A stretch of 51,630 nt of DNA, from the IMG/VR virus record IMGVR_UViG_3300024255_000035, positions 1 through 51,630 of that record; one strand, given 5' to 3'. Positions 8,015 through 40,300 of this stretch are shown here, one piece after another. This DNA is from a virus. Made by a program: the position numbers and the translations under genes. The stretch's first letter is position 1. Each line of letters starts with the position of its first letter. The notes below the pieces were generated by a model, which saw only the letters and a list, made by a program, of their open reading frames with translations, was not told the DNA's origin and did no database searches.

Positions 8015-8022
8015 TATTTATA
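8015..8022 (-). promoter_or_regulatory. T4-type late promoter (TATAAATA)
   Basis: TATAAATA on the minus strand, 29 bases before the ATG at 7986. It lies in the short gap after the Gly-rich fibre gene and so starts a new late unit for the 1701- and 877-residue proteins. Confidence 0.75.
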
Positions 8023-23912: not shown

Positions 23913-24479
23913 CTAATTATTACTAAGAAATATATCAACTGGAACAGCTAATCTAAGATTAGCCTGATAAGTTTTTACCAAATGATATACATATCCAGGC
24001 ATGATTATTACATCACCGGTATGAGGAGTATATTCGATAGGGTTAAACATTTCAGCTGTTTTTCCGAAATATCCTCGATTAGCATTTACTCTTGGATCAT
24101 ATGCTACTAATTCTCCGCCCTTATCTATTTCATCAGCAAGTACATAAAACACTGCAGCAAACTGAGCTCCTGAATGATTATGAATATTCATAGAGTATCC
24201 CTTTTGAGATCCTGTTAACCATGAACTAAAACTATGAGATATATCATTTAAATTACTATCAAATACTTCTTTAAAAAATTCCGTATATTTTTCTATAGCC
24301 AAATCTTTTAACAATGGAATTTTATCTGTGAGCGAACCACTATCGTATTCAGCTTGTGGTTTCATAATACTTGCATTAAGTAAAATCTCTTGAACTAATT
24401 CTTCGCATTGATTTAAAGTAATTTGAGTTTTAAATATTGGAGTTGACCAACAATCATTAATACCCAATTTCAACATCAT
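23913..24479 (-). CDS. 2-oxoglutarate/Fe(II) oxygenase-like protein, 188 aa
   Basis: The C-terminal half has the double-stranded beta-helix pattern of the phage 2OG-Fe(II) oxygenase family. It shows 'MNIHNHSGAQFAAVFYVL' (H100, H102), 'GGELVAYDPR' (121-130), 'GDVIIMPGYVYHLVKTY' (distal H166) and 'LRLAVPVDI' (R176, the likely 2-oxoglutarate contact). The first ligand motif is H-x-H rather than the textbook H-x-D, as in the TIGR02466-type family. Such enzymes hydroxylate peptide side chains or small molecules; the substrate here is unknown. The ATG at 24479 (a second ATG follows at 24476) lies inside the upstream gene (23-base overlap), with AAAGG ahead of it. It is the last gene of the cassette and a paralogue of the gene at 26471-27082. 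Confidence 0.75.
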   Translation of the reverse strand: MMLKLGINDCWSTPIFKTQITLNQCEELVQEILLNASIMKPQAEYDSGSLTDKIPLLKDLAIEKYTEFFKEVFDSNLNDISHSFSSWLTGSQKGYSMNIHNHSGAQFAAVFYVLADEIDKGGELVAYDPRVNANRGYFGKTAEMFNPIEYTPHTGDVIIMPGYVYHLVKTYQANLRLAVPVDIFLSNN

Positions 24480-24861
24480 AATATCCTTTTATATCACTAA
24501 CCATGCCATGAATTATCATCAATGGCCAATCTATATTGTTAAGTATTCTATCGTATATTTCTTTACTACTATCATATGTTTGAAAATACGGATCGTTTCC
24601 AGCTAAAAGCATTGGATCATTTAATAGATCATAAAAGTCTTCGTTAAAATCTTTACTAATCCAATGTGCATAACATATTGCTACAACATAACTCTTAGCT
24701 GGATATAGCCATTCATCTACTTTTTCATTAAAGTGTCGAATAGCATTTTTAATAATAACCTCTTGATTATCATCAAAAACTATTTTTACTTTATTCAAAT
24801 CATCTGAATGATTTTTATTTAATCTATGGTAAACTTCTTGTTTAACTTGCCATTCTTTCAT
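24457..24861 (-). CDS. Unrecognised cassette protein, 134 aa
   Basis: I do not recognise this protein. It is acidic, probably mostly alpha-helical, and has no signal peptide, membrane segment or metal motif. Notable phrases are 'EWLYPAKSYVVAICYAHWIS' (about 50-69) and 'FYDLLNDPMLLAGNDPYF' (about 76-93). It overlaps the upstream radical SAM gene by 20 bases and the downstream oxygenase gene by 23, so it is translated with them. It may be an accessory or binding protein for one of the neighbouring enzymes; that is only inference from position. Confidence 0.6.
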   Translation of the reverse strand: MKEWQVKQEVYHRLNKNHSDDLNKVKIVFDDNQEVIIKNAIRHFNEKVDEWLYPAKSYVVAICYAHWISKDFNEDFYDLLNDPMLLAGNDPYFQTYDSSKEIYDRILNNIDWPLMIIHGMVSDIKGYYDVEIGY

Positions 24862-25750
24862 GATACCAATCCAATAATCCTCTATATCCGTTACAGCTAT
24901 TATCTAAATCTTTGACATATCGATAATGCTCTGTTAAGCAGTTTCCAAAGTACGTGCAGGACGCACATATAGGACTTATCATTTCTTCTTTTTCTTTATT
25001 TGTCCAATCAATGTATTGTTCCCAAGAATCCAATTCAAGAAAGAATTCTTTATCCTCTTCATCAAATTCCAAGACCCCAAACTTGCCATTAGGTGTGATA
25101 TATACGTGATCATCTGAAAATGCATTATATCTTCCTTTCGTTGATTCTATAATTCTATCTTCATTTACAAATTCAAACTTCATAGTGTCTTTTAACTTAA
25201 GCCACTTTATAACAAAATCTTCAAAGTCTTTGTGCGTCACATTATGGGCATTTGCTTGATTAATTGAATATGGTTTAATCTCAACAGACGTAATTGACGA
25301 ACACATATTTAACATGTTAATCATTTCAGATACATCTTTTTCTAGCACCTTTGGAGATGCTAAAACTAAAACCGCAATAGGTACTGTACTCATTAACATA
25401 TTTTGAAATACAAGTTCAGACTTTTCTCTTGCTTCAAAATCATATGATACAGAAAGATACACATCATCATCAAAGAAACCTGGATGCATCATAGAATAAT
25501 TTGTGTTGATGCTAATTTCACCTAAATAATATTTTCTTATAATATCTTTAATGCCATAAAAATACGACTTTTTCATTGCACCAACTTCACCACCATATAG
25601 GTCAATATGTTCTATATCTGGTACTTGAGATAGCAACTCATCTAATTTATCAAATGAAATTTGTTTTTGATCTCCAAGTTGCTTAGTAGATAGGTAACAA
25701 AAGTCGCATCTAAAATTACAAAAATATGAAGGATTAATCGATACGATCAT
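24842..25750 (-). CDS. Radical SAM protein with SPASM-like C-terminus, 302 aa
   Basis: The radical SAM motif CNFRCDFC (C11, C15, C18, the CX3CX2C that binds the catalytic 4Fe-4S cluster) is at the very N-terminus. It is followed by 'IEHIDLYGGEVGAM' (the GGE-type SAM-binding motif). The C-terminus has 'CASCTYFGNC' (C262, C265, C271) and C286, a reduced SPASM or twitch-like auxiliary cluster site. Together they resemble peptide-modifying radical SAM/SPASM enzymes. The start overlaps the stop of the 234-residue gene (ATGA), and the end overlaps the 134-residue gene. The substrate is not evident. The lack of one or two of the usual SPASM cysteines suggests a single auxiliary cluster. Confidence 0.8.
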   Translation of the reverse strand: MIVSINPSYFCNFRCDFCYLSTKQLGDQKQISFDKLDELLSQVPDIEHIDLYGGEVGAMKKSYFYGIKDIIRKYYLGEISINTNYSMMHPGFFDDDVYLSVSYDFEAREKSELVFQNMLMSTVPIAVLVLASPKVLEKDVSEMINMLNMCSSITSVEIKPYSINQANAHNVTHKDFEDFVIKWLKLKDTMKFEFVNEDRIIESTKGRYNAFSDDHVYITPNGKFGVLEFDEEDKEFFLELDSWEQYIDWTNKEKEEMISPICASCTYFGNCLTEHYRYVKDLDNSCNGYRGLLDWYHERMAS

Positions 25751-26470: not shown

Positions 26471-27082
26471 TTACCTGTACGGAAAGGAAATATTCATTAC
26501 TACTGCAAGTCTATCTTCTTCACCATAATAAGGAGTTACTTCATGCCATACATGAGCTGGAACAATAATTATTGTATTTTTTTCAGTCTCAATAGACATT
26601 TTAGATTTAGGTCTTGTTTTTATAACCTGATTAAATGCTGGGTCATGAAAAATTAATTTGCCGCCATCTTTGTCATTATCTACACAGTCTAAATAATAAA
26701 CCGCTACCATTGAAGCACCACTATGACAATGCAAACCTTTATAATCGCCATTTCTCATAAAGGGCAATCTTCCAGTGGTCTGTTCCATACGTTCTAAAAT
26801 TTCGGTGTGTGTAATTGATTCATCATATTCATTAGCTAGTTTTAAAAATGACTTTGCAAAAAAATCGTGTAAATTTTTGATTTCATTATAATTTTTAATA
26901 TTATCATCAGTAAACAATGGGATGTGCACACCATCATCTCCACCATCTTGATATGAAAGCCCTGCCATAGCTAAATGATTTCTAAATATTGCCTGACATA
27001 CCGAATTAAGTGTACTACTTTCTTCTTCATTAATATTATGTAACTCATGTAACATTTTTATTGGAAAAATAGTTTTTATCAT
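26471..27082 (-). CDS. 2-oxoglutarate/Fe(II) oxygenase-like protein, 203 aa
   Basis: It shows 'GLHCHSGASMVAVYYL' (H118, H120), 'GGKLIFHDPA' (140-149), 'IIIVPAHVWHEVTPY' (distal H180) and 'DRLAVVMNISFP' (R191). This is the same layout as the gene at 23913-24479 and like the TIGR02466-type 2OG-Fe(II) oxygenases, again H-x-H in place of H-x-D. The ATG overlaps the stop of the upstream radical SAM gene (ATGA), and a TATAAATA octamer lies 41 bases upstream inside that gene. It is probably a peptidyl or small-molecule hydroxylase. The alternation with radical SAM genes suggests that both act on one pathway. The substrate is unknown. Confidence 0.8.
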   Translation of the reverse strand: MIKTIFPIKMLHELHNINEEESSTLNSVCQAIFRNHLAMAGLSYQDGGDDGVHIPLFTDDNIKNYNEIKNLHDFFAKSFLKLANEYDESITHTEILERMEQTTGRLPFMRNGDYKGLHCHSGASMVAVYYLDCVDNDKDGGKLIFHDPAFNQVIKTRPKSKMSIETEKNTIIIVPAHVWHEVTPYYGEEDRLAVVMNISFPYR

Positions 27083-28113
27083 GCGTATTCCCTCTCATAC
27101 GGCGTCAACTGTCTATTGATGCTATTTATACTGATTATATCAGATGCTAAAGTTTTCATATGCTCACAATGATCTTCTACCATATTATGTTGTTTTAAAT
27201 CTTTAATAGTTTTTTTACATCCATTACAAATTTCAAACATCGGGCAAGTATAGCACGCATTTTTCAAACTCATTAAATTTAAATCTGTCGCAAGCGGTGT
27301 TGAGAATCCACCATTCATTTCGTAATCAAAATCAATAGCCTTATCTAAATCATCACCAAACGCACCACAGGAATAGTAGTCACCTTCAGGCTGAAGCGTT
27401 CGAATACCAGAATCACATGTTCTTGATTGAGGGCATATAGTAGATTCTCCTCTTAATCGTACCATCATTTGCTGAGTATTATGTTCCCAATCGCTTAAAC
27501 CGGCTTTCCATATTTCGACATAACGTTCATATATTTTTGATAATTGATATGGAGCTGATTGTGATCCTGATGCCATTGCATAATTCACTTTACATATTAC
27601 ATCCATCTTCTTTGCGAGTTCAACGGTTTTAATATGAGTATCTTCGTTCTCTTCAACGATTACAGCTATGAAGGATGGTCTATATCCAACATGTTCTAAC
27701 ATCGCATCTGAACATCTCCAGAAATCTTCTTCTGTAAACTCACTATAATCGCCCTTTAATCTTCCACCACCATATTGAAATGACGTAGCCACACCTACCC
27801 TCGGATGGTTGAATAGTTCTTTCCATTTTAGTGGCTTGGTAAGAAACGGGTATAAATTTGTTGTAAGTGATATAGACGCTGGCATATCATGCTTATCAAG
27901 AAACTCTATAATTTTCCAATAATAATTTGGCTTCATCATTAATGGATCACCACCATTAACAATAATTGTTTGTGTATCTGGAAAACGTTTTAAAAACTTA
28001 AATATCTTATTTAAATCAAGAGTGGCTGTATTATCTTCGAACGTAATTTTAGATGATGAACAAAACGAACATTTGAAATTACATAGTTCGGTTGGTTTAA
28101 CAATTAAGTCCAT
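27079..28113 (-). CDS. Radical SAM/SPASM protein, 344 aa
   Basis: CNFKCSFC (C11, C15, C18) gives the radical SAM cluster, and 'TIIVNGGDPLM' (about 50-60) the SAM-binding GGD motif. The C-terminus has a SPASM-type set: 'CYTCPMFEICNGC' (C287, C290, C296, C299) and C316. Upstream cysteines lie in 'CPQSRTCDSG' and 'GDYYSCGAFG'. SPASM enzymes mostly modify ribosomal peptides or proteins (thioether, C-C or ether cross-links, or formylglycine formation). The start overlaps the end of the upstream oxygenase gene by 10 bases, and the stop overlaps the next oxygenase start by 4. It is sandwiched between two oxygenase-like genes. Confidence 0.85.
   Translation of the reverse strand: MDLIVKPTELCNFKCSFCSSSKITFEDNTATLDLNKIFKFLKRFPDTQTIIVNGGDPLMMKPNYYWKIIEFLDKHDMPASISLTTNLYPFLTKPLKWKELFNHPRVGVATSFQYGGGRLKGDYSEFTEEDFWRCSDAMLEHVGYRPSFIAVIVEENEDTHIKTVELAKKMDVICKVNYAMASGSQSAPYQLSKIYERYVEIWKAGLSDWEHNTQQMMVRLRGESTICPQSRTCDSGIRTLQPEGDYYSCGAFGDDLDKAIDFDYEMNGGFSTPLATDLNLMSLKNACYTCPMFEICNGCKKTIKDLKQHNMVEDHCEHMKTLASDIISINSINRQLTPYEREYA
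27123..27130 (-). promoter_or_regulatory. TATAAATA late-promoter-like octamer inside the radical SAM gene
   Basis: The minus strand reads TATAAATA within the 3' end of the radical SAM gene, 41 bases before the ATG at 27082. The spacing equals that before the giant fibre gene. It could give internal late transcription of the second half of the cassette. A chance match in AT-rich coding DNA cannot be excluded. Confidence 0.5.
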
Positions 28114-28649
28114 GGAGAATCGCTAACATTAAACCCAAAATTCATAGTGATTCTGTGCATATCAGGATCTCTAAAGTGTTCAACTCTATGTTCAAACTGT
28201 TTATCTTGGCTTCCTACTACCACATCATATTTTTGAGGTAAATGAAAGGCCGTGATTCTATTATTTTGTGATATATTCCTAAACATAATCTCGCCGCCAG
28301 CATCATTATCCATATCAGTAAAATATAGAAGAAACATTATATTTGCGCCTTCACAAAAATCATTATGCCAATGACATGAAGTTTGTTCAGTGCCATTCCA
28401 ACAATGATAATAAATCAAATCTTGTTTTTTTGAATATGGTTTTAAATAATGATTAAAAAGATAATCAGCGGTCAGCAACATTTTCTTTCGCATACCTAAC
28501 ATATAATAATTTAAAGGGAATCTATAATCTTTTCTATTGCCAACACCTCTAAGCCATTTTATATTAGGAATAGTATCTTCTAGATATTGAAACGCTAAGA
28601 CGTTATTTTCTGTATAAAACCCATCATCCATTTTCCAACCATTTTTCAC
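28104..28649 (-). CDS. 2-oxoglutarate/Fe(II) oxygenase (prolyl-hydroxylase-like), 181 aa
   Basis: This is the most canonical of the three oxygenase-like proteins. It has 'CHWHNDFCEGANIMFLLYF' with H95-x-D97, 'NDAGGEIMF' (115-123), distal H154 in 'EHRVEHF', and R166 in 'HRITMNFGF', where 2-oxoglutarate would be held. The likely reaction is Fe(II)- and 2-oxoglutarate-dependent hydroxylation; the substrate is unknown. The start is a GTG at 28649 that overlaps the TGA of the upstream radical SAM gene (GTGA), with AAGGT ahead of it. An ATG at 28631 is the alternative. The end overlaps the next radical SAM start by 10 bases. Confidence 0.8.
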   Translation of the reverse strand: MKNGWKMDDGFYTENNVLAFQYLEDTIPNIKWLRGVGNRKDYRFPLNYYMLGMRKKMLLTADYLFNHYLKPYSKKQDLIYYHCWNGTEQTSCHWHNDFCEGANIMFLLYFTDMDNDAGGEIMFRNISQNNRITAFHLPQKYDVVVGSQDKQFEHRVEHFRDPDMHRITMNFGFNVSDSPWT

Positions 28650-29791
28650 AGCATTTTTACCTTTTGTCTAAAACCATATGACAGATCATCTTCACCATCA
28701 CGTTTTGGTTTAAATCCCTTTGTTTTTTTAACATAATTAAACGTTTCTTTAAAAACACATTCTTCCATATCATTGTGATCACCTGGCATATCAGCTTTTA
28801 CAAAACATGTAAATGGGCAGTTTTCATAATATTCACACTCAAAACAATTATATTTTTTTAAAAACTTTTCTACTATCTCTCCTGTTTCAAAAGGTGTTTC
28901 ACCAGTTTTTTTATCTCGTTGATACGCTACACCACAACATCCACCAGGCGAAGAACCGTCAGGCTGAATAGTTATTGAATTACCTCTTGTACACATCATT
29001 GCACCAGTCTGATTCAATGGATCATGAAACGCGTCCATGTTTTCGCATTCAGGATAGTTATCTATTAAATATTTATTGAATGCTAATAACTCGCTATCTT
29101 TAGGAATTAATTTTGCATCTGTTTTAATCAGTGGCGATGGCATATAAGCATCAAAATCAACCGGAAAGTTTTTATACAAATAATCAAAAGTGCTTTTATC
29201 ATTGCTCTTTATAATCGTCTGTACATTTTGGCTAGTAGTAACAATTGAAACATTTCTAATATAATCCTTAAAAGTCTCTACATTCTCTAAGAATATTTCC
29301 TGTTGACCTTTATTGAAACGTCCTCTTGGATCATAAGATGTTGAAAGTTTTATATCGTGTTTTTTACAAAAGTCCATGACTTTACTAGAGTTCTTTTTAT
29401 CAAACATAAAATTAGTAAGATAATTGAAATAAATTCTTTTGTCACCAATGTTAATCTTGGATCTGACTAAATCCATAAATTCGTCATATACGTCTAAAAA
29501 GCCTTTTTCAATCCATAGATCTTCAAATAATTCTCCACCTAATAAATGTAATTTATAGTCTTTTGATCTTGGTGAATTGTTAATGAATTTAGCAACAGTA
29601 TCGCTTTTTGCTAAAATTTCTTCTCGAGTAGCTCCGACCATTGAGTTATGATCTTGTGGACAGAATACACATTTTAAATTACAATGTTCAAAGAATATTA
29701 TAACAAGCTCACTTGATCGAGTGATCTTGCTTCCTAAAATTTTGTATATATCAAAATCAAGTGGAGCTGGATTAATAGGTGCTACAGACAT
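28646..29791 (-). CDS. Radical SAM/SPASM protein, 381 aa
   Basis: An N-terminal extension of about 35 residues precedes CNLKCVFC (C37, C41, C44), followed by 'LHLLGGELFEDL' (GGE-type SAM motif). The C-terminus has 'IQPDGSSPGGCCG' and then 'CFECEYYENCPFTC' (C316, C319, C325, C329) and C345, a full SPASM-like set. This predicts auxiliary 4Fe-4S clusters and action on a peptide or protein. It starts 10 bases inside the end of the B12-type radical SAM gene and is coupled by GTGA to the next oxygenase gene. A TATAAATA octamer lies 50 bases upstream. The substrate is unknown. Confidence 0.85.
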   Translation of the reverse strand: MSVAPINPAPLDFDIYKILGSKITRSSELVIIFFEHCNLKCVFCPQDHNSMVGATREEILAKSDTVAKFINNSPRSKDYKLHLLGGELFEDLWIEKGFLDVYDEFMDLVRSKINIGDKRIYFNYLTNFMFDKKNSSKVMDFCKKHDIKLSTSYDPRGRFNKGQQEIFLENVETFKDYIRNVSIVTTSQNVQTIIKSNDKSTFDYLYKNFPVDFDAYMPSPLIKTDAKLIPKDSELLAFNKYLIDNYPECENMDAFHDPLNQTGAMMCTRGNSITIQPDGSSPGGCCGVAYQRDKKTGETPFETGEIVEKFLKKYNCFECEYYENCPFTCFVKADMPGDHNDMEECVFKETFNYVKKTKGFKPKRDGEDDLSYGFRQKVKML

Positions 29792-31452
29792 TCTTTACTT
29801 ACCTCTGACATAATTATATGTCTATTTTTTTCTATAAATTTATTTATAGTATTTGCTCTAAACTCTTGATTTAAAACTTTAATGCTTTTTGGTTGAGAAT
29901 TTGGATTAAATATATCTCTTATTTCAGAATATATATCATCCCAACTATCTAATTTACTTATAGCTTCATATGCTTTTTTAGTAAAGACAGACGGTGATAC
30001 ACTATTTTCAATCATAGGATAAAAGTGTTGCAATAAATAATTTCCAGCACTATTCATAAACCACATTTCATGCATTTCTTCAATTGTAAACGAAAAGCAA
30101 GATGATATAGTTTTAAAATATGATTTCTTATTTTTGTATAAATTATTCCAACTATCTATTCCTTGTTCATCTGCAATATCAGTGTAAACTTCAACTGTTC
30201 GAATATCATATTTAATTTTATATTCCTGAGAATTAAGAGCTGAATCAGGAAGAAACATATAATCGTGTCTATAAGAACCAAACGATTTGAAATTCCAGAT
30301 ATATTCCATTTCATTATAAAAATCATCTATCGTAGAACCCGGCATTGCAAGTATCATTTCTAAATTAGGTATTGGAAACCCATGCTTTGAACATTGTTCA
30401 TTAATGTGTTTGCTTAATTCCAATTTATCTTCTGTATTTAAATCAACTCTTTCAGCTATTTTCATTGCAATGTCAGAACTGCTTTGAATAGATACCGATG
30501 GAACTATTGATATATTAGCCATCTCACTCCACATGTTTTTCCCGTTTTTCATATTTGGAGAAGCATAATTTGTTCCAACAATTTCAAAATACTTATCAAT
30601 CAATTTTTTTCTTCTACTTAAATCTTTAGATTTCATAGTAGAAATATCGGTTAAATTAAAACCGTTTGTCCAAGCATATTCAAAAATTTCAAAGTCTCTT
30701 TCAAAAAAAGCTCCAAAGTTTGCATCATTTAAATATGCAGATCTATAACCGGCTTTCAACATAGCAGTAATATCACGTTTCACTATATCTAATGATTTCT
30801 TATAAATCTTTGTATTAATGCCACCGCCCCATTCACAAAATACACACTTATAAGGACAGCCTCTCGTTGTCTCTAAAACAATAAATGGTTCCATTTTATA
30901 CTTGCGGGCATACTCAAGTAATTTTGTAAGATATTCTAAATGATCTTCGTATACCGAATAGTCTTCTTTTGATATATCATGTATGACTTTTACGTCTGAC
31001 CTTAATTCCCATGGAATACTTGTTGGATCGATTTTGTTTTCAATAAACTGATCTATAAGTTCAGCCATAAATGGTTCACCTGGTTTAGTAGGTCTACAAA
31101 TTAAATCATACTGAGGACGAGAGGCTAATAGTTCAGGTTCATTAGTTCCTATATGTGGACCACCCAAAACCAATATTTTTTCTGGATATTCATTTTTAAT
31201 TTTATTAGAAATTTCATCACATATCATATAATTCCAAGTATATGAAGAAAACATAATTACATCTGCTGCAATTATTTCATCTACTACTTCATCATACGAT
31301 TTATAGCTATTCCATTTATATGGTGATTCTAACCATTGCACTTTTTCGCTATATTTTCCATACCGTGCATAATAACTTTGCATCAATAAAAATGTAAAAT
31401 TATTTGCTAATGACCAGTCAGCGTGAGGAGGATTGACAAATGATATAATCAT
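29782..31452 (-). CDS. Radical SAM protein with B12-binding-like N-terminal domain, 556 aa
   Basis: Residues 1-140 have the Rossmann-like layout of the B12-binding domain of class B radical SAM enzymes: 'MIISFVNPPHADWSL', 'AADVIMFSSYTWNY' and 'KILVLGGPHIGTNEPELLAS'. The radical SAM motif 'CPYKCVFCEWGGGI' follows (C199, C203, C206), then 'AYLNDANFGAF' and 'MILAMPGSTIDDF'. There is no SPASM cysteine set at the end. The DxHxxG motif that coordinates cobalt in some B12 proteins is not evident, so cobalamin binding is uncertain. In peptide biosynthesis such enzymes usually methylate unactivated carbons or rearrange residues. It lies 33 bases after the 376-residue gene. Confidence 0.8.
   Translation of the reverse strand: MIISFVNPPHADWSLANNFTFLLMQSYYARYGKYSEKVQWLESPYKWNSYKSYDEVVDEIIAADVIMFSSYTWNYMICDEISNKIKNEYPEKILVLGGPHIGTNEPELLASRPQYDLICRPTKPGEPFMAELIDQFIENKIDPTSIPWELRSDVKVIHDISKEDYSVYEDHLEYLTKLLEYARKYKMEPFIVLETTRGCPYKCVFCEWGGGINTKIYKKSLDIVKRDITAMLKAGYRSAYLNDANFGAFFERDFEIFEYAWTNGFNLTDISTMKSKDLSRRKKLIDKYFEIVGTNYASPNMKNGKNMWSEMANISIVPSVSIQSSSDIAMKIAERVDLNTEDKLELSKHINEQCSKHGFPIPNLEMILAMPGSTIDDFYNEMEYIWNFKSFGSYRHDYMFLPDSALNSQEYKIKYDIRTVEVYTDIADEQGIDSWNNLYKNKKSYFKTISSCFSFTIEEMHEMWFMNSAGNYLLQHFYPMIENSVSPSVFTKKAYEAISKLDSWDDIYSEIRDIFNPNSQPKSIKVLNQEFRANTINKFIEKNRHIIMSEVSKECL
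29841..29848 (-). promoter_or_regulatory. TATAAATA late-promoter-like octamer inside the B12-type radical SAM gene
   Basis: The minus strand reads TATAAATA 50 bases before the ATG at 29791, inside the 3' end of the preceding gene. It would allow late transcription of the radical SAM/oxygenase genes independent of read-through. Confidence 0.5.
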
Positions 31453-31485: not shown

Positions 31486-32616
31486 TTAGACTGTCACATA
31501 TTTAGCAATAACAGTTTTATCAGAAATAGAGTTAGCGTGTAGCAGTGAATGAACTAAATAATGATTTACTGTTTCAAGCTCTAAAGCAAAGAATTTTTCA
31601 GGTTCTTTGTCATATGATGATTCAATTAAGATAAGTCTATCCAACAACTCATCTGTTAATTCAGTAGTAATTGCTGGTAAGAATTCTAATATGATATCAT
31701 CTCTTAAAGTAAAATCAGACCATTGACTTTCTATAATAGCTACAAACTCTTTAATAGTATTGAGATCTGAATCAGAAATGTTTTCAAATATTATATTATC
31801 ACTACTAGAAGCACCACTTAAATATTTTATCGACCACATATCATCTTTAATAAACACTTGAGCAAATTTAGAAGTATCTGTAAAAATGTCATTAATATTA
31901 TTTAATGTATAAGTTTTGTCTAAACTTAATTTATCAGCAAAAGGTTTAGTTAAGAAATGTTGGAAAAATACTTCTTTTAATTCGTAAAGATATTGTTCAA
32001 ACACCTTTTTCAGCAAAGGTCTGACTGCGCTTTTTAACTCGGCTTTTGAAGATTTGTTATTGAGATAATTCGCTAGTAGATGTTCAACACTTATTGTATT
32101 TTTATATTTTGTCATAAAAGCTTTTTTCTTAGCTGCAGATGGAGCTTTAACGCTGTCATAAATGGTCTTGAAATTTTCTACTTTTAAAATTTCACCAGCT
32201 CCTAATTTTGCGTTGTTGCTTGAAAATCTGCCTCTAAAAAATGTATTGAATTTAAAAGCATGTGCTCTTACTAATGATTCGACTGAATCAGCTGTAGGAG
32301 TTTTTAAAATAAATTTATACCACGTAGACATAATAAATTGCAATGCTGCATTGTCACAATAAACGACGATTCTTTTATTTGTAGCATCACATTTAGTAGC
32401 TAATTGATCAAAAAGAGTTGAAGCATCTTTAAACGTTTTATCTTTTCCTAAAATATCATCCCATTCAAGTCCATATGCGATAAGTTGACCAGATAAGATT
32501 TTTTGGAGATCTTCTAAAAGATTAAAACCGTTATTCTGCGATACAACAATACGATCAAATTTTGGATCGATGATATTATCTGTTGTTACATAAATTTTCT
32601 TAAACAGATGTATCAT
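31486..32616 (-). CDS. Unrecognised cassette protein, 376 aa
   Basis: I do not recognise this protein. It begins 'MIHLFKKIYVTTDNIIDPKF', then has 'GQLIAYGLEWDDILGKD' and 'KRIVVYCDNAALQFIMSTWY' (about 81-100), which read as a small alpha/beta domain. The rest is mainly helical. No iron-sulphur cysteines, signal or membrane segment is present. Its ATG overlaps the stop of the 215-residue gene (ATGA), which itself overlaps the CHSS-tail gene, giving a three-gene coupled unit. It could be a recognition or scaffold protein for modification of the CHSS-tail protein; that is inference from gene order only. Confidence 0.65.
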   Translation of the reverse strand: MIHLFKKIYVTTDNIIDPKFDRIVVSQNNGFNLLEDLQKILSGQLIAYGLEWDDILGKDKTFKDASTLFDQLATKCDATNKRIVVYCDNAALQFIMSTWYKFILKTPTADSVESLVRAHAFKFNTFFRGRFSSNNAKLGAGEILKVENFKTIYDSVKAPSAAKKKAFMTKYKNTISVEHLLANYLNNKSSKAELKSAVRPLLKKVFEQYLYELKEVFFQHFLTKPFADKLSLDKTYTLNNINDIFTDTSKFAQVFIKDDMWSIKYLSGASSSDNIIFENISDSDLNTIKEFVAIIESQWSDFTLRDDIILEFLPAITTELTDELLDRLILIESSYDKEPEKFFALELETVNHYLVHSLLHANSISDKTVIAKYVTV

Positions 32617-33260
32617 AACTGTTCTCCTGTGGCGATTGCGCTTGTTAGTAAAAACATTGGGTTATTAACATTTGCCCAATAGCTAAATAAATTATTTCCT
32701 TTAAACATATACTCATTAAAGTATGATTTATAATATGTTTTATGATGTTCAATTACATTAGCATAAAACAGATAGAATCTTTCATGCTTAAGTAAGCTTA
32801 CAAAATTTATTCCGGTCAAATCTTTGGTATCATCTTTTGGAAATGCTTTGACATAATCTTTTAATTCATCTGATTCAACAGTATAAAGATTATATAATGA
32901 AAGAGAATCTAATTTTTTAGTCCACGTTGTAAGTATATCAACATTATCATCTATAAAGTTTTTTTCTGTTAGCTCTACTATACCTTTCATTTGAAGTAAC
33001 AAATTAATTACTCTTTCTTCAAGGGTCGGTACATTTATAATAAAATTAGCTAAAAGATATTCTTTAGTCATATGATCAAAGTCTTCTTGACTATCAATTC
33101 CAATATCACATGGCAGTTCTAAATTGCTAAGATACGTTAATAGCTTTGTTCCTTGTAATTGAGAATTTTGGTAATCAACCATATAAAAAGTTTGATCATC
33201 TTCAAAATACAATTTTAGATCTTCAATACTGAACGGCGCAGTAACATCAATAACTTTCAT
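32613..33260 (-). CDS. Unrecognised cassette protein, 215 aa
   Basis: I do not recognise this protein. It is acidic and predicted mostly helical, with a short alpha/beta-like start ('MKVIDVTAPFSIEDLKLYF') and aromatic-rich C-terminus ('YYKSYFNEYMFKGNNLFSYW'). Its ATG overlaps the TGA of the CHSS-tail protein (ATGA at 33260-33257), and its own stop overlaps the next ATG in the same way. Such tight coupling suggests it is made in fixed ratio with the CHSS-tail protein and acts with it, for example as a binding partner. No enzymatic motif is visible. Confidence 0.65.
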   Translation of the reverse strand: MKVIDVTAPFSIEDLKLYFEDDQTFYMVDYQNSQLQGTKLLTYLSNLELPCDIGIDSQEDFDHMTKEYLLANFIINVPTLEERVINLLLQMKGIVELTEKNFIDDNVDILTTWTKKLDSLSLYNLYTVESDELKDYVKAFPKDDTKDLTGINFVSLLKHERFYLFYANVIEHHKTYYKSYFNEYMFKGNNLFSYWANVNNPMFLLTSAIATGEQL

Positions 33261-33820
33261 CGTCTTCCTCGCGAACCATGACAGCTGCTATGACAACTGC
33301 TGTGACAAATATTAATAGTTACAGTAATAGTATTAGATACTAACGAATTAAATCTTGTTTGTAAATCAGTAAATTTAGCTTCTAATCCAGTATCAGTAAT
33401 TTGTGTTCCAGATGATAACGTAACACCAGCTGCAGATAAAGATTGCACATAACTACTGCTTAGATAAGCTTTTTGTGTTTGATTAAAAATTAAGCCTGGG
33501 GTTTGGTATGTACCTATATTACTTGTTACACCTGTTACGTTTTGCCTTGCATTTAAATTTCTAATTTGACTATATGCCGCGGTTTCATTTTCAATTGCGG
33601 TATTAATAGTAGCAGCATTAATTGGATTTCCGGCTATAGTAGATCCGCTAATTCCAATGCTTCTCCCAGCAGTCGTTCCACCAAAATAGCTTGTAGAAAA
33701 TCCACTGAACGGAACAGAGTTGGTACCCCAAACAATCCCAGAATTTGCACTTGCTGGAGCAAAATCCGCAAATCTATCTATTATATTCTGTGCTGTAATT
33801 GGACTTGTTAATGTAGCCAT
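33257..33820 (-). CDS. Candidate modified substrate protein with C-terminal CHSSCHSSCHGSRGRR tail, 187 aa
   Basis: Residues 1-170 are Cys-free and look like a small folded or structural-type domain: 'MATLTSPITAQNIIDRFADF', then Gly/Ser/Thr-rich 'SYFGGTTAGRSIGISGST', a helix 'AATINTAIENETAAYSQI', and 'TVTINI'. The final 16 residues (172-187) are CHSSCHSSCHGSRGRR: three Cys, each followed by His and Ser/Gly, then a basic end. They are encoded by three 12-bp repeats. The tail contains a His-Xaa-Ser unit in each repeat, as in HxsA-type radical SAM substrates, next to Cys as in sactipeptide cores. It follows a SPASM radical SAM gene, has its own late promoter 27 bases upstream and a GAGGAATGAA ribosome-binding site. 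Alternative: the Cys/His tail simply binds a metal. Confidence 0.7.
   Translation of the reverse strand: MATLTSPITAQNIIDRFADFAPASANSGIVWGTNSVPFSGFSTSYFGGTTAGRSIGISGSTIAGNPINAATINTAIENETAAYSQIRNLNARQNVTGVTSNIGTYQTPGLIFNQTQKAYLSSSYVQSLSAAGVTLSSGTQITDTGLEAKFTDLQTRFNSLVSNTITVTINICHSSCHSSCHGSRGRR
33272..33307 (-). repeat. Three 12-bp repeats encoding C-H-S/G-S units
   Basis: Read on the minus strand, the units are TGTCACAGCAGT, TGTCATAGCAGC and TGTCATGGTTCG, encoding CHSS, CHSS and CHGS. Differences are mostly at third positions, so the peptide pattern is better kept than the DNA. That suggests selection on the peptide rather than a fresh duplication. Confidence 0.85.
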
Positions 33821-33846: not shown

Positions 33847-33854
33847 TATTTATA
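33847..33854 (-). promoter_or_regulatory. T4-type late promoter (TATAAATA)
   Basis: The minus strand reads TATAAATA 27 bases before the ATG of the CHSS-tail gene, overlapping the stop of the upstream SPASM gene. The spacing is identical to that before gp25, a bona fide late virion gene, so the CHSS-tail protein is expected to be expressed late. Confidence 0.75.
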
Positions 33855-34869
33855 CATGTTTTGCTAGTTCTATCATTAAACTTTTAGGAGCTCCGCAAAT
33901 ATCGCCATCCCATCCTAGTTGATGACAATCTCCTCCGCAAAATCTAGAAACAGGACATTCTAAACAAAGAGGATTTCTCATTTTTTCTTCTAATATAGTT
34001 CTTATTCTTTTAGGACTTTTTAGTAATATATCGATAGAATCATCTAGACTTCCAAAGGCTTGTTCAGGAGCGCTATTTGGACATCCTGCGATAGTTCCAT
34101 CACCATTTATTGTAAATAGTTTTTGCTCACAATCTCTACAAAATGTTCCGCATGTAGTCATAGTCTTTTCAAACTTAGCATAAACATTTTCTAAAAAGTC
34201 ATTTTCAAACCAATCTCGTGCTCCATGCTCTTCACTTTGAATATGCATTTTTAAAAAATATGAATCGAGTTCTGCATTGCTTGGAAAGATTTCTGATGCT
34301 TTTCTTGCACTACCATTATTAGTTAATCTTTCAAGAGAAACTTCTTGAACACCTAATCTCCTACACCATCTTAATAGCGTTATAGGATCTTTAGCAAGAG
34401 TATCTTTAGTGAGACTAATAAACAGGCGAATAGTTACTCCTTCAGCAAGCAATGTTTTTACATTTTTATGCCAAAGATTATATTGGGTATTATTTTCAAA
34501 TCGTATCTTACGATCCCAAGATGTACCTAATCTATTACCGAGCGGCCCTTTAATAAATTCTTTATGTTCATCTTTTAATTTAAATACTAGATTAGTTGTT
34601 GCACCCCAAGACATCTGATCCCATAGACCATCGCATGCGTCGTATACCTTTCGCATTTGGCCAACCGGTACAAGAAACGGTTCACCACCATGAAATTCCA
34701 TATGTATAGAATCTTGGGTCGCAGGTTTTTCTTTTCTAAATCTATGAATCCAGTCAACTAGCTTATCAGTATTCCAATAAATCTTTTGACCGCTTCTTCC
34801 GCTCGTAAAACAATGCGCACAATTAAGCTGACATGTTTCTGTTGTTTTGAGATACATCAGCCAGTTCAT
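33850..34869 (-). CDS. Radical SAM/SPASM peptide-maturase-like protein, 339 aa
   Basis: It has 'CQLNCAHC' (C13, C17, C20), 'MEFHGGEPFLVP' (SAM-binding GGE motif, about 58-69) and a complete SPASM domain: C247 and C263 ('CEQKLFTINGDGTIAGC') and 'CLECPVSRFCGGDC' (C302, C305, C311, C315) plus C324. This is the classic anSME/peptide-maturase layout with two auxiliary clusters, and the best textbook SPASM enzyme here. It lies directly upstream of the CHSS-tail gene, which is therefore its most likely substrate. The ATG at 34869 lies inside the upstream cupin gene (47-base overlap); M5 is an alternative start. Confidence 0.9.
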   Translation of the reverse strand: MNWLMYLKTTETCQLNCAHCFTSGRSGQKIYWNTDKLVDWIHRFRKEKPATQDSIHMEFHGGEPFLVPVGQMRKVYDACDGLWDQMSWGATTNLVFKLKDEHKEFIKGPLGNRLGTSWDRKIRFENNTQYNLWHKNVKTLLAEGVTIRLFISLTKDTLAKDPITLLRWCRRLGVQEVSLERLTNNGSARKASEIFPSNAELDSYFLKMHIQSEEHGARDWFENDFLENVYAKFEKTMTTCGTFCRDCEQKLFTINGDGTIAGCPNSAPEQAFGSLDDSIDILLKSPKRIRTILEEKMRNPLCLECPVSRFCGGDCHQLGWDGDICGAPKSLMIELAKHV

Positions 34870-35350
34870 TATTAATTTTATCCTCTGTATAATTTTCTAA
34901 ACCAAAGCTCAGTGTCAATGCTTCATCTTTATTTAATGCTTGATGAGGAGTATAAGCTGGTATATGTATATATTCTCCTGAACTAATAGTCAATAGCTTA
35001 TCATTAATTATTAAAGACTTAGATCCTTCACAACAATATATAATAACATCATCTGGGTCGGTGTGCATGCCAAAAGAATAAGACCCAGCTGATGCAAAAA
35101 ATAAATGACATGTTACATGTTGTTCATGTTCCCAATCAGTTTTTACTTTCCAGCAATATTCGTATATTGCTGAATTAAAATTTTCCATACGTTCAATTTT
35201 TATAGAATGGTTTTGTTTTTGTGCTTTGCAAAAATCACTAAAGCTAGTAATTAGTTGTTCACGACCCTGTTCATCTATAGCATAAACCATGTTTTGTTCA
35301 TACATATGATTTGCAGTAAGTGCAGATATGAGTTGAGATTTATTAATCAT
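34823..35350 (-). CDS. Cupin/JmjC-like Fe(II) oxygenase candidate, 175 aa
   Basis: The C-terminal half has 'YSFGMHTDPDDVIIYCCEGS' with an H96-x-D98 motif and 'GEYIHIPAYTPHQALN' with distal H136. This is the HxD...H iron triad on a cupin fold as in JmjC-type 2-oxoglutarate oxygenases (ribosomal oxygenase YcfD is an example of the fold). The 'SGEYIHIPAYTPHQA' phrase is characteristic. A plain non-catalytic cupin is possible, since the 2-oxoglutarate-binding residue is not evident. It is the first gene of the cassette, starts 43 bases after the stop of the 591-residue fibre gene and overlaps the SPASM gene by 47 bases. No TATAAATA is seen directly upstream. Confidence 0.7.
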   Translation of the reverse strand: MINKSQLISALTANHMYEQNMVYAIDEQGREQLITSFSDFCKAQKQNHSIKIERMENFNSAIYEYCWKVKTDWEHEQHVTCHLFFASAGSYSFGMHTDPDDVIIYCCEGSKSLIINDKLLTISSGEYIHIPAYTPHQALNKDEALTLSFGLENYTEDKINNELADVSQNNRNMSA

Positions 35351-35379: not shown

Positions 35380-35397
35380 TGTAAACAGTTATTTACA
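35380..35397 (-). terminator. Weak hairpin at the fibre/cassette junction
   Basis: TGTAAA and TTTACA pair around a six-base loop, overlapping the stop of the 591-residue gene and followed by TTTAATT on the minus strand. The stem is short and AT-rich, so at best it is a leaky terminator or mRNA-end stabiliser between the fibre gene and the cassette. Confidence 0.25.
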
Positions 35398-37168
35398 CTT
35401 TTAATACACATTCTATTAATTTTTCTTCAACTGCAGTAGACGATTCTAAAGCAATACCTATTATTTCAGCATGAGAACCATCTGGTGCAAAGCCATTAAA
35501 CTCTTTACCTGCGCATCCATTATGGTGAGCATATACAGGATCACCTTTATTAACAGCTCCAACTATTCTAACTGGAACACGTCCTTTAAGAGCAAGTGCT
35601 TGTCCATCTATATCTGCGTTCATTAAATATGCGGGATCAGCTGAAACCACACCCATTGGAATTCCATTTGCAGTACATGCTACTGTTTCTTCAGTTTCGT
35701 TTGACGATATCATCATTACTGTTCCAACTGGATGCTCTTCGCTTGTAGTATATTTTTCTGCAAGGTCAGCATAATTTGCAGACGTTGCATTACCAGCAAA
35801 AGTTCCTGCGGTCAATGTATGTGATGATGGATTATATAGTAAATGATCGTTATCTGTATCAATATATGGTCGCTGGTAACCTGCGCCGTTATTATCACTA
35901 AACAATATTTGATAATTTACGTCATCATTTTTTTCATCTACATTAATATTATCGGCATTAGTAGCCAGTGTTACATCACCACTCGCAAGAGTAACTACTC
36001 CAGCATTAGTAATTGTAGCATCTCCACTTAACGTGGCCGCAGTAAAACCAGAGCCATTACCAATTAAAATTTGTGCATCTCCTACTGCAACATCTGATGG
36101 TACACCTGCAGTAGCTGCATTTCTAACTTTAATTGTACTAGCTGCCATATTACTTAGTTTTGCATTTGTTACATTACCATCTAATATTTTATCAGTAGTG
36201 ACGGCATTATCTGCAATTTGTCCAGTTGCTACTTGAGCTGCTACCACATCACCAGCAACTCTTCCAACTACCGTATTTACTGGCACAGCAAAACTTACGA
36301 GATCTCCTGCAGCTCGAGCAACAACACTATTAGTAGAAATCGATAAGTCATCAATATTTGCAGTACCTACTCTTGCAAGAAGAGTATTACTATCTAATGC
36401 TAAGTCAGTTGGATTTTCAGCGCCTGCCGTAGCATTTACCTTAACTGTATTAGCTGCCATATCGTTTAGTTTTGCATTCGTCACCACATCTGGTTGGATT
36501 GTAACAACACCAGCATTTGTCATAAGAACATCTTGAGATAAAGCAGCAGATGTGAAACCAGTTCCATCACCAATTAAAATTTGCTCATTAACAACAGCTT
36601 TATTTGACGATGCTCCAGCTGTATTTGCATCTCTTACTTTAACTGTATTTGCTGGCATATCTTCTAACATAAGACCATCAGCTTCTTGAGTTAATCCATG
36701 ACCACCTGCAACATTAAATACACCAGATGAATCATCTATAGTAGATTTACTTATACCAAGTCCTGCAGCGTAATTTGTAGTCGGAGGAATAGCCCAAGTA
36801 AATGTTCCATCTCCATCAGATCTTAAAAACTGATATTGAACACCTCCACCAAGGAGAGAATATCCGCCCATACCGCTAACAGCTAAGTGATGAGAAGTAA
36901 TAACATCTGAATCAATATTACGGCCAGAGATCGCATGTGTATCTATATGATATTCTTTAAGCTGGTTTGAATCTATCCATGCCATATCATGTAAGTGGTT
37001 CATCGCTGATACATAACTAGAATCATGACCAGTAAAACCAGGAGATCCTGTTTGGCCACTACCGGTAGTCAGCTCATCTAAGTCTCCTCCTTGTTCACCA
37101 ATGAGGTTGGTCTTCTGTCTCCAACTATTAATTGTATCAGTTAGATTTACGATTACCTGTCTAGCCAT
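35393..37168 (-). CDS. Tail fibre protein with C-terminal chaperone-like domain, 591 aa
   Basis: The N-terminus 'MARQVIVNLTDTINSWRQKT' is followed by a shaft with repeated phrases 'MPANTVKVRDA', 'GDGTGFTSAALS', 'NAGVVTI' and 'NAKL', typical of phage fibres. The C-terminal domain starts 'ATSANYADLAEKYTTSEEHP' (about 465) and continues 'GTVMMISS', 'GVVSADPAYLMN', 'ALKGRVPVRIVGAVNKGDPV'. This is the conserved end of many T4-like marine phage fibres and is related to Peptidase_G2/IMC-like chaperone domains. The ATG overlaps the end of the 76-residue gene by 8 bases. It is the last structural gene before the modification cassette. Fibre identity is firm; position in the virion is inferred. Confidence 0.8.
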   Translation of the reverse strand: MARQVIVNLTDTINSWRQKTNLIGEQGGDLDELTTGSGQTGSPGFTGHDSSYVSAMNHLHDMAWIDSNQLKEYHIDTHAISGRNIDSDVITSHHLAVSGMGGYSLLGGGVQYQFLRSDGDGTFTWAIPPTTNYAAGLGISKSTIDDSSGVFNVAGGHGLTQEADGLMLEDMPANTVKVRDANTAGASSNKAVVNEQILIGDGTGFTSAALSQDVLMTNAGVVTIQPDVVTNAKLNDMAANTVKVNATAGAENPTDLALDSNTLLARVGTANIDDLSISTNSVVARAAGDLVSFAVPVNTVVGRVAGDVVAAQVATGQIADNAVTTDKILDGNVTNAKLSNMAASTIKVRNAATAGVPSDVAVGDAQILIGNGSGFTAATLSGDATITNAGVVTLASGDVTLATNADNINVDEKNDDVNYQILFSDNNGAGYQRPYIDTDNDHLLYNPSSHTLTAGTFAGNATSANYADLAEKYTTSEEHPVGTVMMISSNETEETVACTANGIPMGVVSADPAYLMNADIDGQALALKGRVPVRIVGAVNKGDPVYAHHNGCAGKEFNGFAPDGSHAEIIGIALESSTAVEEKLIECVLKV

Positions 37169-37393: not shown

Positions 37394-40300
37394 TTAAACT
37401 CCTAACGCTATAACTCTTAAATCTTTAACTGTAGGAACTTTTGAACTGTTATTAGCAAAAAATACAATTTTAATTTGGAATGTAGTAAAGGCTGGAATAG
37501 ACCCTCCAACGCCGCCAATTAAATAGCGATATTCTTTATAAGAATAGATATTATCTGAAGTAGAAACAGGTGCTTCAAGTTCAGCTATTGTCCAGTCAAT
37601 ATCAGTTAGTATTGTATCTTCTGTACCAGTTTTATAATATACATCAAATAACGAGCCTGTAGGTCTGTTAGCAGCTAATAAAACTTTTAACCCTACTGCA
37701 GTATTTGTTAATGTCACTGGCTTTGTAATATGTTTAGCAAGAGCACTTCCACTAAACGGAGTAGTTTCTGCAGCATAATCAAAGATCACATTATGACCAG
37801 AAGTAGCTGATGCTGCTGGTCTATCTATTTCATTTTTAGTAAGTACTAATGAACATCTTTGCAAATCAATAATAGGCGAAACAAAAGAGCTAGTTGTACT
37901 CATTGAGAGTCTTAAAGAACCAGTATTAACTCCACCTAATCCGCCAGCACCTGTTGCAGTATCTTCTTTTACTGCATTTGCTACCATTATTGGAGTCTCA
38001 AAATAATTTTTTTGATTAAGCGCAATATCAGTATATCCTCCTGCTGGCGCAACATATGGAGTTTCTAACGCAACATTCGAATATCCGGAATACAGGCTTG
38101 CTTTTGGAATTATACTTGTATTAGGAGGATCAAGAGTTTGAACAATAGGATATAAAGTATTTCCTTGAATATTTTTAGTTGCAAATATTTCACTTCCACC
38201 GCCTTGAGCTGCTGAAGTCGCTGATCCTGCAGCTAATGTAATTTTATAGCCTGTAGGATCAATATGGGTTATTGTATGAGTAGTGTTAAGTTGAGAAGCT
38301 GTAACGCCTCCAACCGCAGTTGCTCCAGTAATAGCAACTTTATCTCCAACAAATAAATTATGATTCTTATGGAAAACTCTTATTGAAGTTGGAGCTGAAG
38401 TATTTGTTAAAATAGGATTAAGACCTAATTGAGCAAGTGGTAAATCTGCTGTATTAAGTTGAGCAACTGCTTGTATATTAGTAGCAAAATCAGCTCTATA
38501 TAATGTAAATTTCATATCCTGTTCTTGAGAAGCTTCCCAAGTTGTACTGTTTTGTGACTTAAAGAAAGATCCTAAAAATGGCTGTTTTGTAATTCTTCTT
38601 GAAGTAGATCCTAATTCCCAGTCACCCATAAATGATGTCCATAATAAATAATCTGTATTGTCGCATATACAAACAATTGCGTATTCTGTTCTACCAGATA
38701 AGTAGATTGGTTCATCAAAAGTAAATGTTGTTGAAAGACTTGCGTCATTAGAAATTGCAACATCACCAGGGGCTAAATATTTTCTAGATCCTGGTACAAT
38801 TGTATTTGATGCTGGATAGCCATTTACAAGAGGTCTTAATTCAATCCATACTGGTAGCGTAGCATGTTTTGTTTTAAAATATAAATCAACTTTAGTTACA
38901 AATATACCTTCGTCTTGAGGAACACGAAACGATTGAGCTAATGGATCCCAATCAACTCCGCGCACTCCATCTGGAGTAGGATTATCCGGACCGTCATCCC
39001 CACCATTATTAATAGGTTGTGGCACAGGTTGCAATCTAGATCCAGTTACTACTCTACTAGTACTTGAAACTCTATTTCCAACTACTGTAAGATGTCGAGT
39101 AGATAATATTTCTTCTTGCCAAGTCTGTAGAGCACCTGTAGCGTTATATGATGCTACTGCTCGTGATCCTGGCAAACCACCGTTGTTCGCTGTTTCTGTA
39201 ACGTCAAGTAACATAAAATTAGCGTTACCAGTTCTAAATTTAGTTGTACTATTATTAGGAATAAAAAAAGATCCTGCGACACTACCCTTTGCATCTGTAA
39301 GTAATGCGCCACTTCCATCTGGATGTGTTGTAAAATTATTTGGCGATTCATATTCAACTCTTGAGGAATTAATTCTATCAAAATTTCCGGTGTTTCTGAC
39401 AAAACTATCCATTTTTACATTATTAAAGTAAGCAAAATGATATGCATCGGGTCGTAATCCAATCGCTTCGAAGCTAATTTTTCTACTTCTCATGAATGGT
39501 ATAACTGCTACATCAATAATTTTAGAACCCAAAGAAGTTCGAATAGTTTCAGAAGCCACTACTCTATTTACAATTGAACTTGTAGTTTGGTCAAATCCCC
39601 AAACTGTTAATCTTCCACTGGTCTGAGAGAATGCTCGACTAGATGTCGTTGTAGCTGATGCTACTGTAGTTTCATCCCCTACTTCCATTCCTTCAATGTC
39701 GTTACCTAACCAACCCCACTCTGATTGATCAAAAAGAAGCGCTTGATTGAGATTTAATCTTGTTCCACCGTCAATCACTTTTGCAGCAGCAATTTGATCA
39801 ACTTTCCATTCATCTGACTGAGGAGATAACGTCATTGATCCACTATAAATGGAAATCATATATGGATTAACATTTTCTGTACGTGATACAACTGATTGTG
39901 TAATATATGCAACTTCAGTATGTTTAATATAAATGTTATCTCCTTTTAAAACGGTGTCTGGTGTATCTACTCCGCTTACAGTCCTCGAAGAAGAAGTTGC
40001 TGCATCGTAAATAAGCCCTACATTATATTCAGTAAAAGGTGGATGTAAAGTCATAGTTTTTGGATCAATAGAAGCTTTATATTCAACTGAATTAACATTA
40101 GCGTGAAAAAGATCTTTAAAATTATCTACAAGAAATCCAGATTTAGTTCTATTATTACCTGAAGCATCAATAACTTCCAACGCATTAGTATCTAGTTCTA
40201 ATAAACTAAGAGCTACAGTTTCTTCTAATAAATCTACTCGCTTATCGATTTTACCAATATCTTTCATGGTATAACCTTTATTTTCAATAAATTTAACGAC

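Follow-up and report, generated by a model that had tools for sequence, protein, structure and literature searches.

The viral record IMGVR_UViG_3300024255_000035 of IMG/VR (positions 1 to 51,630; this whole stretch of 51,630 nucleotides is called the window in the following) raises the question, on which protein a radical S-adenosylmethionine (SAM) enzyme of a phage acts. One marine T4-like viral genome is reported to carry 12 radical SAM genes (PMC5332604) and such genes of marine phages were interpreted as auxiliary metabolic genes (PMC7150976); the parts of both papers covered here name no protein substrate for them. In the window, a gene encoding a radical SAM/SPASM enzyme, here called rSAM_A, is directly followed by a gene for a protein which ends in three units of the type Cys-His-Xaa-Ser, the CHxS tail. 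We consider it rather probable that the latter is a late, fibre-associated phage protein, the tail of which is modified by rSAM_A and by a cupin encoded beside it.

The CHxS-Tail Protein of the Window

From the letters alone it had been proposed that a Cys-free N-terminal domain (N-domain) ends in three C-H-(S/G)-S units and that its gene lies directly after a SPASM gene. Both statements were confirmed. The open reading frame (ORF) of 187 codons on the minus strand contains its first Cys at residue 172 at the earliest and terminates in TINICHSSCHSSCHGSRGRR; rSAM_A adjoins it immediately upstream and exceeds the cut-off of the SPASM model TIGR04085 (32.8 vs. 27 bits). On the other side, the stop codon of the tail gene shares nucleotides with the start ATG of geneB (33260), which follows. 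The units are encoded by TGT-CAC-AGC-AGT, TGT-CAT-AGC-AGC and TGT-CAT-GGT-TCG. The description as 12-bp repeats differing mostly at third positions therefore applies to units 1 and 2, which show third-position changes only, but not to unit 3, in which two codons are altered at first and second positions too.

Structure prediction with an alignment of 55 sequences resulted in a mean predicted local distance difference test (pLDDT) value of 86, with low confidence for the tail (blocks of 62 and 51). According to this model, the C-terminal tail is likely disordered and the N-domain is likely a conserved folded domain, which belongs to the mature protein. A long folded leader to be disposed of, as suggested in the original prediction, is less likely. 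In the PDB, the model had no match at E ≤ 0.001, and a comparison with 191 chains gave no value of Z ≥ 2; neither Pfam nor a solved-structure profile search provided a credible relative; a homeodomain match (E 0.0034) was judged to be due to chance. In BFVD, four matches at E ≤ 0.001 were found, among them gp170 of Agrobacterium phage Atu_ph07. The same predicted fold occurs in BFVD in proteins of 504–660 aa from Myoviridae sp. ctijX18.

Conservation of the Tail

A DNA pattern of the tail was detected in at least 120 viral stretches and in 19 stretches of bacterial or archaeal genome contigs. Three of the latter (L144, L145, and L151) are probably accidental and were classified as chance matches, because their genomes are without rSAM_A; L144 and L151 have no strict tail ORF and that of L145, which is included among the unique ORFs below, comprises only 29 codons. 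Six further loci from the genome collection (L141, L146, L148, L149, L153, and L158) may stem from phages whose contigs were binned into metagenome-assembled genomes (MAGs). All of the 13 close-to-moderate homologs of the window protein have kept the tail. In total, 183 ORFs ending in the tail were collected, 159 of them unique. Several loci derive from one contig (L047/L010, L070/L006, L085/L007, L095/L011, and, judged by length and sequence, L049/L015), so that counts of loci are not counts of independent phages. Two tandem tail ORFs of about 130 aa each are present in 21 of the 120 pattern loci.

Since nothing but C, H, R and the stop is prescribed by the pattern, these columns are invariant by construction in all loci found with it; when 55 divergent members are aligned, no other columns are invariant. 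Among the positions left free by the pattern, the fourth place of the units is Ser or Asn in 96% of 73 sequences, and 143/159 unique ORFs have a Gly between the Arg residues of the tail. For 73 unique single-copy loci (700 pairs), the median pair identity of the tail was 81%, or 57% if only its free columns are counted, compared with 49% for rSAM_A and 28% for the N-domain. Within the latter, just two Gly, one Arg and one Thr are nearly invariant, and 107/150 unique proteins have no Cys in it. The codons of the conserved tail residues vary freely (301 TGT and 255 TGC; 255 CAC and 294 CAT), which places the conservation at the protein level; an RNA or other nucleic-acid feature was rejected for this reason. 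Chance repeats are ruled out by the 13 homologs, by the number of pattern stretches and by the enzyme linkage described next.

Linkage of the Tail to Radical SAM Genes

It had been suggested to examine whether the tail always sits beside a SPASM gene, and this was the case almost throughout, whichever partner was searched first. For the enzyme-first search, which does not presuppose the tail, a profile of 25 rSAM_A sequences with seeds from tail loci was used and the best 80 of 368 confirmed relatives on viral contigs were taken, six of which end too early to be tested. A tail ORF is present in all 74 testable loci (74/74); it follows the enzyme gene immediately in 70 and lies further downstream in four. 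For the search starting from the tail, 79 single-type loci have an upstream sequence of 700 nt or more; rSAM_A abuts in 67/79 of them and lies within 2 kb in 72/79. One of the seven exceptions, L088, is explained by an over-long ORF start with rSAM_A at -394; the others are L048, L051, L054, L122, L125, and L127. In the 21 two-copy loci, the second tail ORF has a further radical SAM type (rSAM_X) as its neighbour, which overlaps or adjoins it 18 times and is 1.8 kb off twice, while in one case the sequence ends. Three to four rSAM_X-type paralogs in a row were observed downstream of the tandem tail genes in L021, L044, L053, L072 and other two-copy loci.

The tail was not encountered in phages devoid of any radical SAM gene, which had been named as one of the observations that would refute the proposal: of 26 records chosen because no rSAM_A adjoins their tail gene, 25 match Radical_SAM (PF04055) at E ≤ 0.001, 22 of them over the cut-off, and the 26th, an 18-kb fragment, has matches of the rSAM_X type. 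As a control, loci of the fibre domain fibC (see below) were collected. Of the best 80 of 596 such loci, 66 have at least 3 kb of downstream sequence; four contain tail and radical SAM, 51 neither, 11 a radical SAM-type match without the tail and none the tail without radical SAM. Six of the 11 were opened and their best radical SAM matches reached 28.7–65.9 bits, which is far below true rSAM_A (e.g., 371–557 bits in genomes), so that these proteins are of other types.

Fibre Genes and Cultured Jumbo Phages

The C-terminal domain of a tail-fibre-like protein upstream of the cassette, fibC, matches a tail-fibre family of PHROG. A fibC gene lies not more than 4 kb upstream in 67/90 testable loci, and in 25/139 loci fibre and tail ORFs are immediate neighbours. 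The relation is one-sided, because fibC is a common fibre domain also in phages without the tail; it places the cassette near fibres and does not predict the tail. Two other arrangements were noticed at fibC genes. In L399 (10485–10688, plus strand) and L412 (10417–10623, plus strand), proteins of 67–68 aa ending in TVCECQCQCDCSRGTL and TVCECQCACACGRGTV, respectively, are encoded downstream of the fibre gene and immediately ahead of a radical SAM gene of another type; they are possibly a second substrate of phage radical SAM enzymes. In L348, L364, L390, and L416, the fibC gene is followed by genes for a protein of about 310 aa, paired proteins of about 280 aa and a distant radical SAM protein, without a CHxS tail, which is another recurring fibre-linked enzyme cassette.

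Relatives of rSAM_A in the phage collection comprise seven records of six cultured jumbo phages: Agrobacterium phage Atu_ph07, Sinorhizobium phage Phosso, Burkholderia phages SURPRISE13, FLC6 and FLC8, and Pseudomonas phage pPa_SNUABM_DT01. In each of them the genes are arranged as cupin – rSAM_A – tail, with the tail protein annotated as “hypothetical protein”; the annotations of FLC6 and S13 note, in the parts covered, only the enzymes. These tails were located through rSAM_A and then confirmed by ORF reading and the pattern, which occurs exactly once per genome (reversed control pattern: 0). Searches of the phage collection by tblastn with the full tail protein (E ≤ 0.01) or its last 25 residues (E ≤ 10) gave no match despite the presence of the tail. 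The family phrog_35144 represents the Burkholderia form of the protein, and other members match its profile in the C-terminal part only.

For Atu_ph07 a particle proteome determined by mass spectrometry has been published, which gives three clusters of virion proteins, one of them CDS 170–215 (PMC6102473, as far as covered). This cluster starts exactly at the tail protein gp170; the RefSeq numbering agrees with that of the paper at gp122/123, 125, 132, 140 and 141. The position of gp170 at the cluster edge and the nearby fibre genes indirectly support a tail protein linked to the virion.

Cassettes of Bdellovibrio-Type Bacteria

The cassette is not restricted to phages. rSAM_A was detected in 13/129 genomes of the class to which one Bacteriovorax genome belongs and in MAGs of Bdellovibrionaceae. 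These cassettes were taken as chromosomal, because one lies on a contig of 4.15 Mb and the flanks of two others contain genes for thiolase together with 3-hydroxyacyl-CoA dehydrogenase, or for cytochrome oxidase. A companion protein of one family is encoded near the cassette in 9/13 bacterial loci examined. Of five companions scanned, which come from four loci, all contain Peptidase_S74 (PF13884) and two have the prepilin N-methylation motif; an S74 domain behind a prepilin-type N-terminus looks unusual. The loci L241–L252 and L159 contain, besides the prepilin-like S74-chaperone protein, a protein of about 200 aa with the C-terminus RHWVKVK or one very similar to it, and some a small TAT-like protein. 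Bacteria of the Bdellovibrio type lead a predatory life. The S74 fibres of Bdellovibrio, termed MAT fibres and related to fibres of phages, have been described as proteins of the predator-prey contact (PMC10769870, in part), and the S74 and pilin-like proteins near the cassettes may be likened to them and to the S74 tail fibres of phages. The likeness is by description only, and the term “radical SAM” does not occur in the main text of that paper as far as covered.

The bacterial tails differ in number and spacing of the repeats (YCHGNFPPPCHGSRGRR, YCHTNVPTPPPCHASRGRR, YCHSNHCSHSNHGSRGRR, WCHSSHSSHSSHSSRGRR) and retain the end H-x-S-R-G-R-R. The variant tail CHSSHSSHSSHSSRGRR of L258 (4286–4918, plus strand) holds a single Cys and four HSS. 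This variation bears on two alternatives. If the tail were a recognition handle, at which the enzymes dock in order to modify the N-domain or a neighbouring fibre protein, its near invariance would suit a docking tag and a fibre gene is indeed often nearby. We regard this as unlikely, since the N-domain offers few conserved targets, the nearly invariant ones being the four residues named above, and since repeats rich in reactive Cys, His and Ser, changing in number and spacing, suit a substrate better than a tag. Slightly less probable still is an unmodified Cys/His metal site, with the radical SAM genes serving something else. Three Cys and three His within 12 residues would be compatible with direct metal binding, as by the HxH motifs of T4 gp37, and iron sites of the HxH type are described for fibre tips (PMC11705849, in part). 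For such a bare site, however, a SPASM enzyme as constant partner would be unnecessary, and so would conserved Ser and R-x-R-R; moreover, the tail of L258 has just one Cys.

Enzymes of the Cassette

The features of the window are listed in Table 1. In rSAM_A, the Cys residues of the CxxxCxxC core and of the SPASM domain are invariant in 25 sequences, as is characteristic of a SPASM maturase. Among curated models, DynA, TIGR04083 and PapB come closest; the alignment with the DynA and PapB models extends over most of the length, as does that of the rSAM_A profile with the sulfatase maturase anSME. The system shares radical SAM core and SPASM domain with these maturases and differs from them in that the window enzyme reaches just 36–38 bits against cut-offs of 300–450 and in the presumed substrate, a protein of about 125–360 aa with a C-terminal tail. 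The metal residues H-x-D...H of the cupin are present in 100% of 73 sequences, and PF08007 is matched with 31.4 bits (cut-off 22). Hydroxylation of Arg or His is the reaction of JmjC_2 proteins of the RoxA/NO66 type, and both residues occur in the tail.

The CxxxCxxC motifs of the radical SAM proteins in the cassette are conserved. The downstream set, consisting of rSAM_C, rSAM_D, rSAM_F, a B12-type radical SAM protein and several 2-oxoglutarate (2OG) oxygenases, differs between phages. The predicted fold of geneB (pLDDT 95.5) has an alpha/beta start and a helical rest; there was no match in the PDB at E ≤ 0.001, and the best Z of the VIA comparison was 3.9 over residues 1–56. For geneC, a profile search of the PDB returned no credible match. 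Three of the radical SAM proteins match pVip, and there are viperin matches in NCBIfam, all of them weak. An anti-defence or viperin-like cluster with the tail protein as a bystander is nevertheless very improbable, as the pVip matches amount to 17–28 bits over the N-terminal radical SAM region only and the tail and the radical SAM genes are almost never apart; viperin-type defence was dropped for the former reason.

Table 1. Positions of the tail gene, the TATAAATA element before it and surrounding genes in the window.
Feature	Position	Strand	Remark
CHxS-tail protein gene	33257..33820	minus	187 aa, ATG start; Cys-free N-domain, predicted folded, and C-terminal tail
Codons of the 16-residue tail CHSSCHSSCHGSRGRR	33260..33307	minus	
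TATAAATA element	33847..33854	minus	26 nt before the tail-gene start
rSAM_A, radical SAM/SPASM enzyme	33850..34869	minus	constant partner of the tail gene
Cupin/JmjC-like putative oxygenase	34823..35350	minus	Cupin_2 and JmjC_2 over cut-off
Tail-fibre-like protein, C-terminal domain fibC	35393..37168	minus	fibC genes recur upstream of the cassette or tail gene
DUF4815 protein	37394-42697		
Baseplate-like gene	45394-47238		
geneB (phrog_20767)	32613..33260	minus	usually next after the tail gene
geneC	31486..32616	minus	often after geneB
B12-binding radical SAM protein	29782..31452	minus	KedN5-like, far below cut-off
rSAM_C, radical SAM	28646..29791	minus	CxxxCxxC and further conserved Cys
oxy1, putative 2OG-Fe oxygenase	28104..28649	minus	conserved HxD..H..R; no Pfam match
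rSAM_D, radical SAM	27079..28113	minus	best NCBIfam model DynA, 50.8 bits of 450 (cut-off)
oxy2, 2OG-FeII_Oxy_5 (PF13759) oxygenase	26471..27082	minus	
rSAM_F, radical SAM	24842..25750	minus	
geneG, small cassette protein	24457..24861	minus	also in bacterial cassettes
oxy3, putative 2OG-Fe oxygenase	23913..24479	minus	profile matches SURPRISE13 proteins so annotated

Comparison With Known Systems

The original prediction had pointed to the Hxs (His-Xaa-Ser) systems (TIGR03979, NF038296, NF038309, TIGR03978, TIGR03977). Short His-x-Ser repeats in the presumed target of a radical SAM enzyme, here as H-x-S/N in three units, and more than one radical SAM protein are indeed common to both. The CHxS family differs in the Cys of most units, the R-x-R-R end, the cupin and 2OG oxygenases and the phage setting. 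The window tail protein does not match the HxsA models, TIGR03979 was over its cut-off in 0/11 genomes or records, and neither maturase can be assigned to Hxs (rSAM_A 30.9 of 370 bits for HxsB; rSAM_D 30.2 of 267.9 bits for HxsC). The tail of L258 forms a bridge: it matches HxsA2 (23.9 bits, cut-off 48), HxsA (15.9 bits, cut-off 121.65) and HxsA3 (11.7 bits) over the repeat only and below the cut-offs, so that the C-H-x-S unit grades into H-x-S repeats. The resemblance therefore stands and the membership does not; the CHxS system is not an Hxs member and represents a variant of radical SAM-modified repeat-tail systems.

A repetitive C-terminal core and a radical SAM/SPASM neighbour are typical of loci for ribosomally synthesized and post-translationally modified peptides (RiPPs). 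Both are present here, and a ribosomal precursor is encoded beside its presumed modifying enzyme in conserved pairing, as is required of a RiPP; the system is a RiPP candidate. In that case the N-domain might be a long leader, from which the tail is cut off and released as a small RiPP with an antimicrobial, signalling or superinfection role; the Hxs-type bridging tail of L258 would speak for this as well. Such a release is improbable, as the N-domain is predicted to be folded, neither a peptidase nor an exporter was recognized in the 10 window proteins scanned, and the gene upstream is fibre-like.

Proposed Function of the Tail

According to the interpretation preferred here, the protein would consist of a fast-evolving folded N-domain and a flexible tail of C-H-x-S/N units ending in R-x-R-R. 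rSAM_A and the JmjC-like cupin would take the tail as substrate, in which Cys, His, Ser or Arg would probably become cross-linked and hydroxylated, and to which the further radical SAM, B12-type radical SAM and 2OG enzymes of the cassette would perhaps add more modifications. The finished protein would be carried on the particle together with the tail fibres and take part in the contact with the Gram-negative host; its role in attachment is the most speculative part of the proposal. The same cassette would serve some Bdellovibrio-type bacteria, in which a pilin-like S74-chaperone protein is encoded nearby.

Several points weigh against this interpretation. We infer the modification of the tail, the types of the bonds and the assembly into the virion, and no modification has been observed. 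The presence of gp170 among the detected virion proteins is likewise deduced from its position, and a cluster edge is no proof. Besides the built-in invariance of the C, H and R columns mentioned above, fibC is lacking within 4 kb upstream in 23/90 loci, including those of the Burkholderia and Pseudomonas jumbo phages, and 76/80 loci found with fibC as bait are without the tail (14 of them with less than 3 kb downstream). A control with a baseplate gene, for which those 15 of 80 loci were used that lie on contigs of at least 18.8 kb, gave rSAM_A and tail in 1/15 and neither in 14/15; it is weak, because the sole positive (contig of L002) is near-identical to the window and the others are perhaps fragments. 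In the MAG G043 (L150), a tail is present at a contig end without rSAM_A, and G117 has no tail-like ORF in the 14 kb examined. The other cassette enzymes may have other substrates. Neither a protease, a transporter nor a RiPP recognition element was identified, the search for peptidases and exporters covering the 10 window proteins. Homology of the bacterial WVKVK protein to fibC is unsupported (one match with E 6e-4 in a small set; 17% in hhalign).

A more far-reaching and clearly more tentative view of the cassette shared by phages and predatory bacteria is that the radical SAM and 2OG enzymes convert the tail, carried by an attachment fibre, to a rigid and possibly metal-holding group, which mimics a natural ligand, for example a metallophore, of outer-membrane receptors in Gram-negative bacteria. 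The docking part of the virus would then be a natural product made by post-translational modification. Siderophore microcins of the MccE492 type have a conserved Ser-rich tail on variable proteins, which is finished by dedicated enzymes and docks to outer-membrane receptors. By analogy only, both systems would have a conserved, enzyme-modified C-terminal tail on variable proteins; the microcins differ in enzymes and residues and are not virion proteins. A finished tail serving as a docking ligand, possibly with bound metal, would be akin to the Ferrojan-horse idea, an unproven parallel, in the context of which HxH iron sites in fibre tips have been described (PMC11705849, in the parts covered).

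Putative Late Promoter and Genomic Setting

A strong late promoter had been assumed before the tail gene. An exact copy of TATAAATA, which we take to be the T4-type late -10 element, is located there, and in the 60 nt upstream it occurs in 18/132 unique tail genes vs. 1/132 intragenic control stretches. The total in the window, 11 exact copies vs. 12.9 expected by chance, is not above chance, although all 11 lie on the minus (coding) strand. Several sites were noticed just upstream of late genes, with sites at 8015, 23781, 33847 and 47709. The large ORFs of the region are on the minus strand, and from its gene content (DUF4815, baseplate-like, fibre-like) the region presumably holds the late structural genes of a T4-like myophage. 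A fibre-like protein of 4549 aa with long runs of DSDYIKSIADSDYV-type repeats is encoded at 9412–23061 (minus strand).

Implications for Phages and Predatory Bacteria

Among the literature matches listed on phage radical SAM enzymes and RiPPs, on the motif, on fibres and on Bdellovibrio, a CHxS tail is not described. With the tail, linked in all testable enzyme-first loci, a candidate for the substrate of a phage radical SAM enzyme can be named, and its presence in six cultured phages makes it directly testable. The findings suggest that many phages, including six cultured giants, and some Bdellovibrio-type bacteria share a cassette which finishes the tail of a particle protein. If this is true, phages would chemically finish a protein of their own particle, a layer of virion maturation without description among these matches, and bacteria of the Bdellovibrio type would share the same tool.

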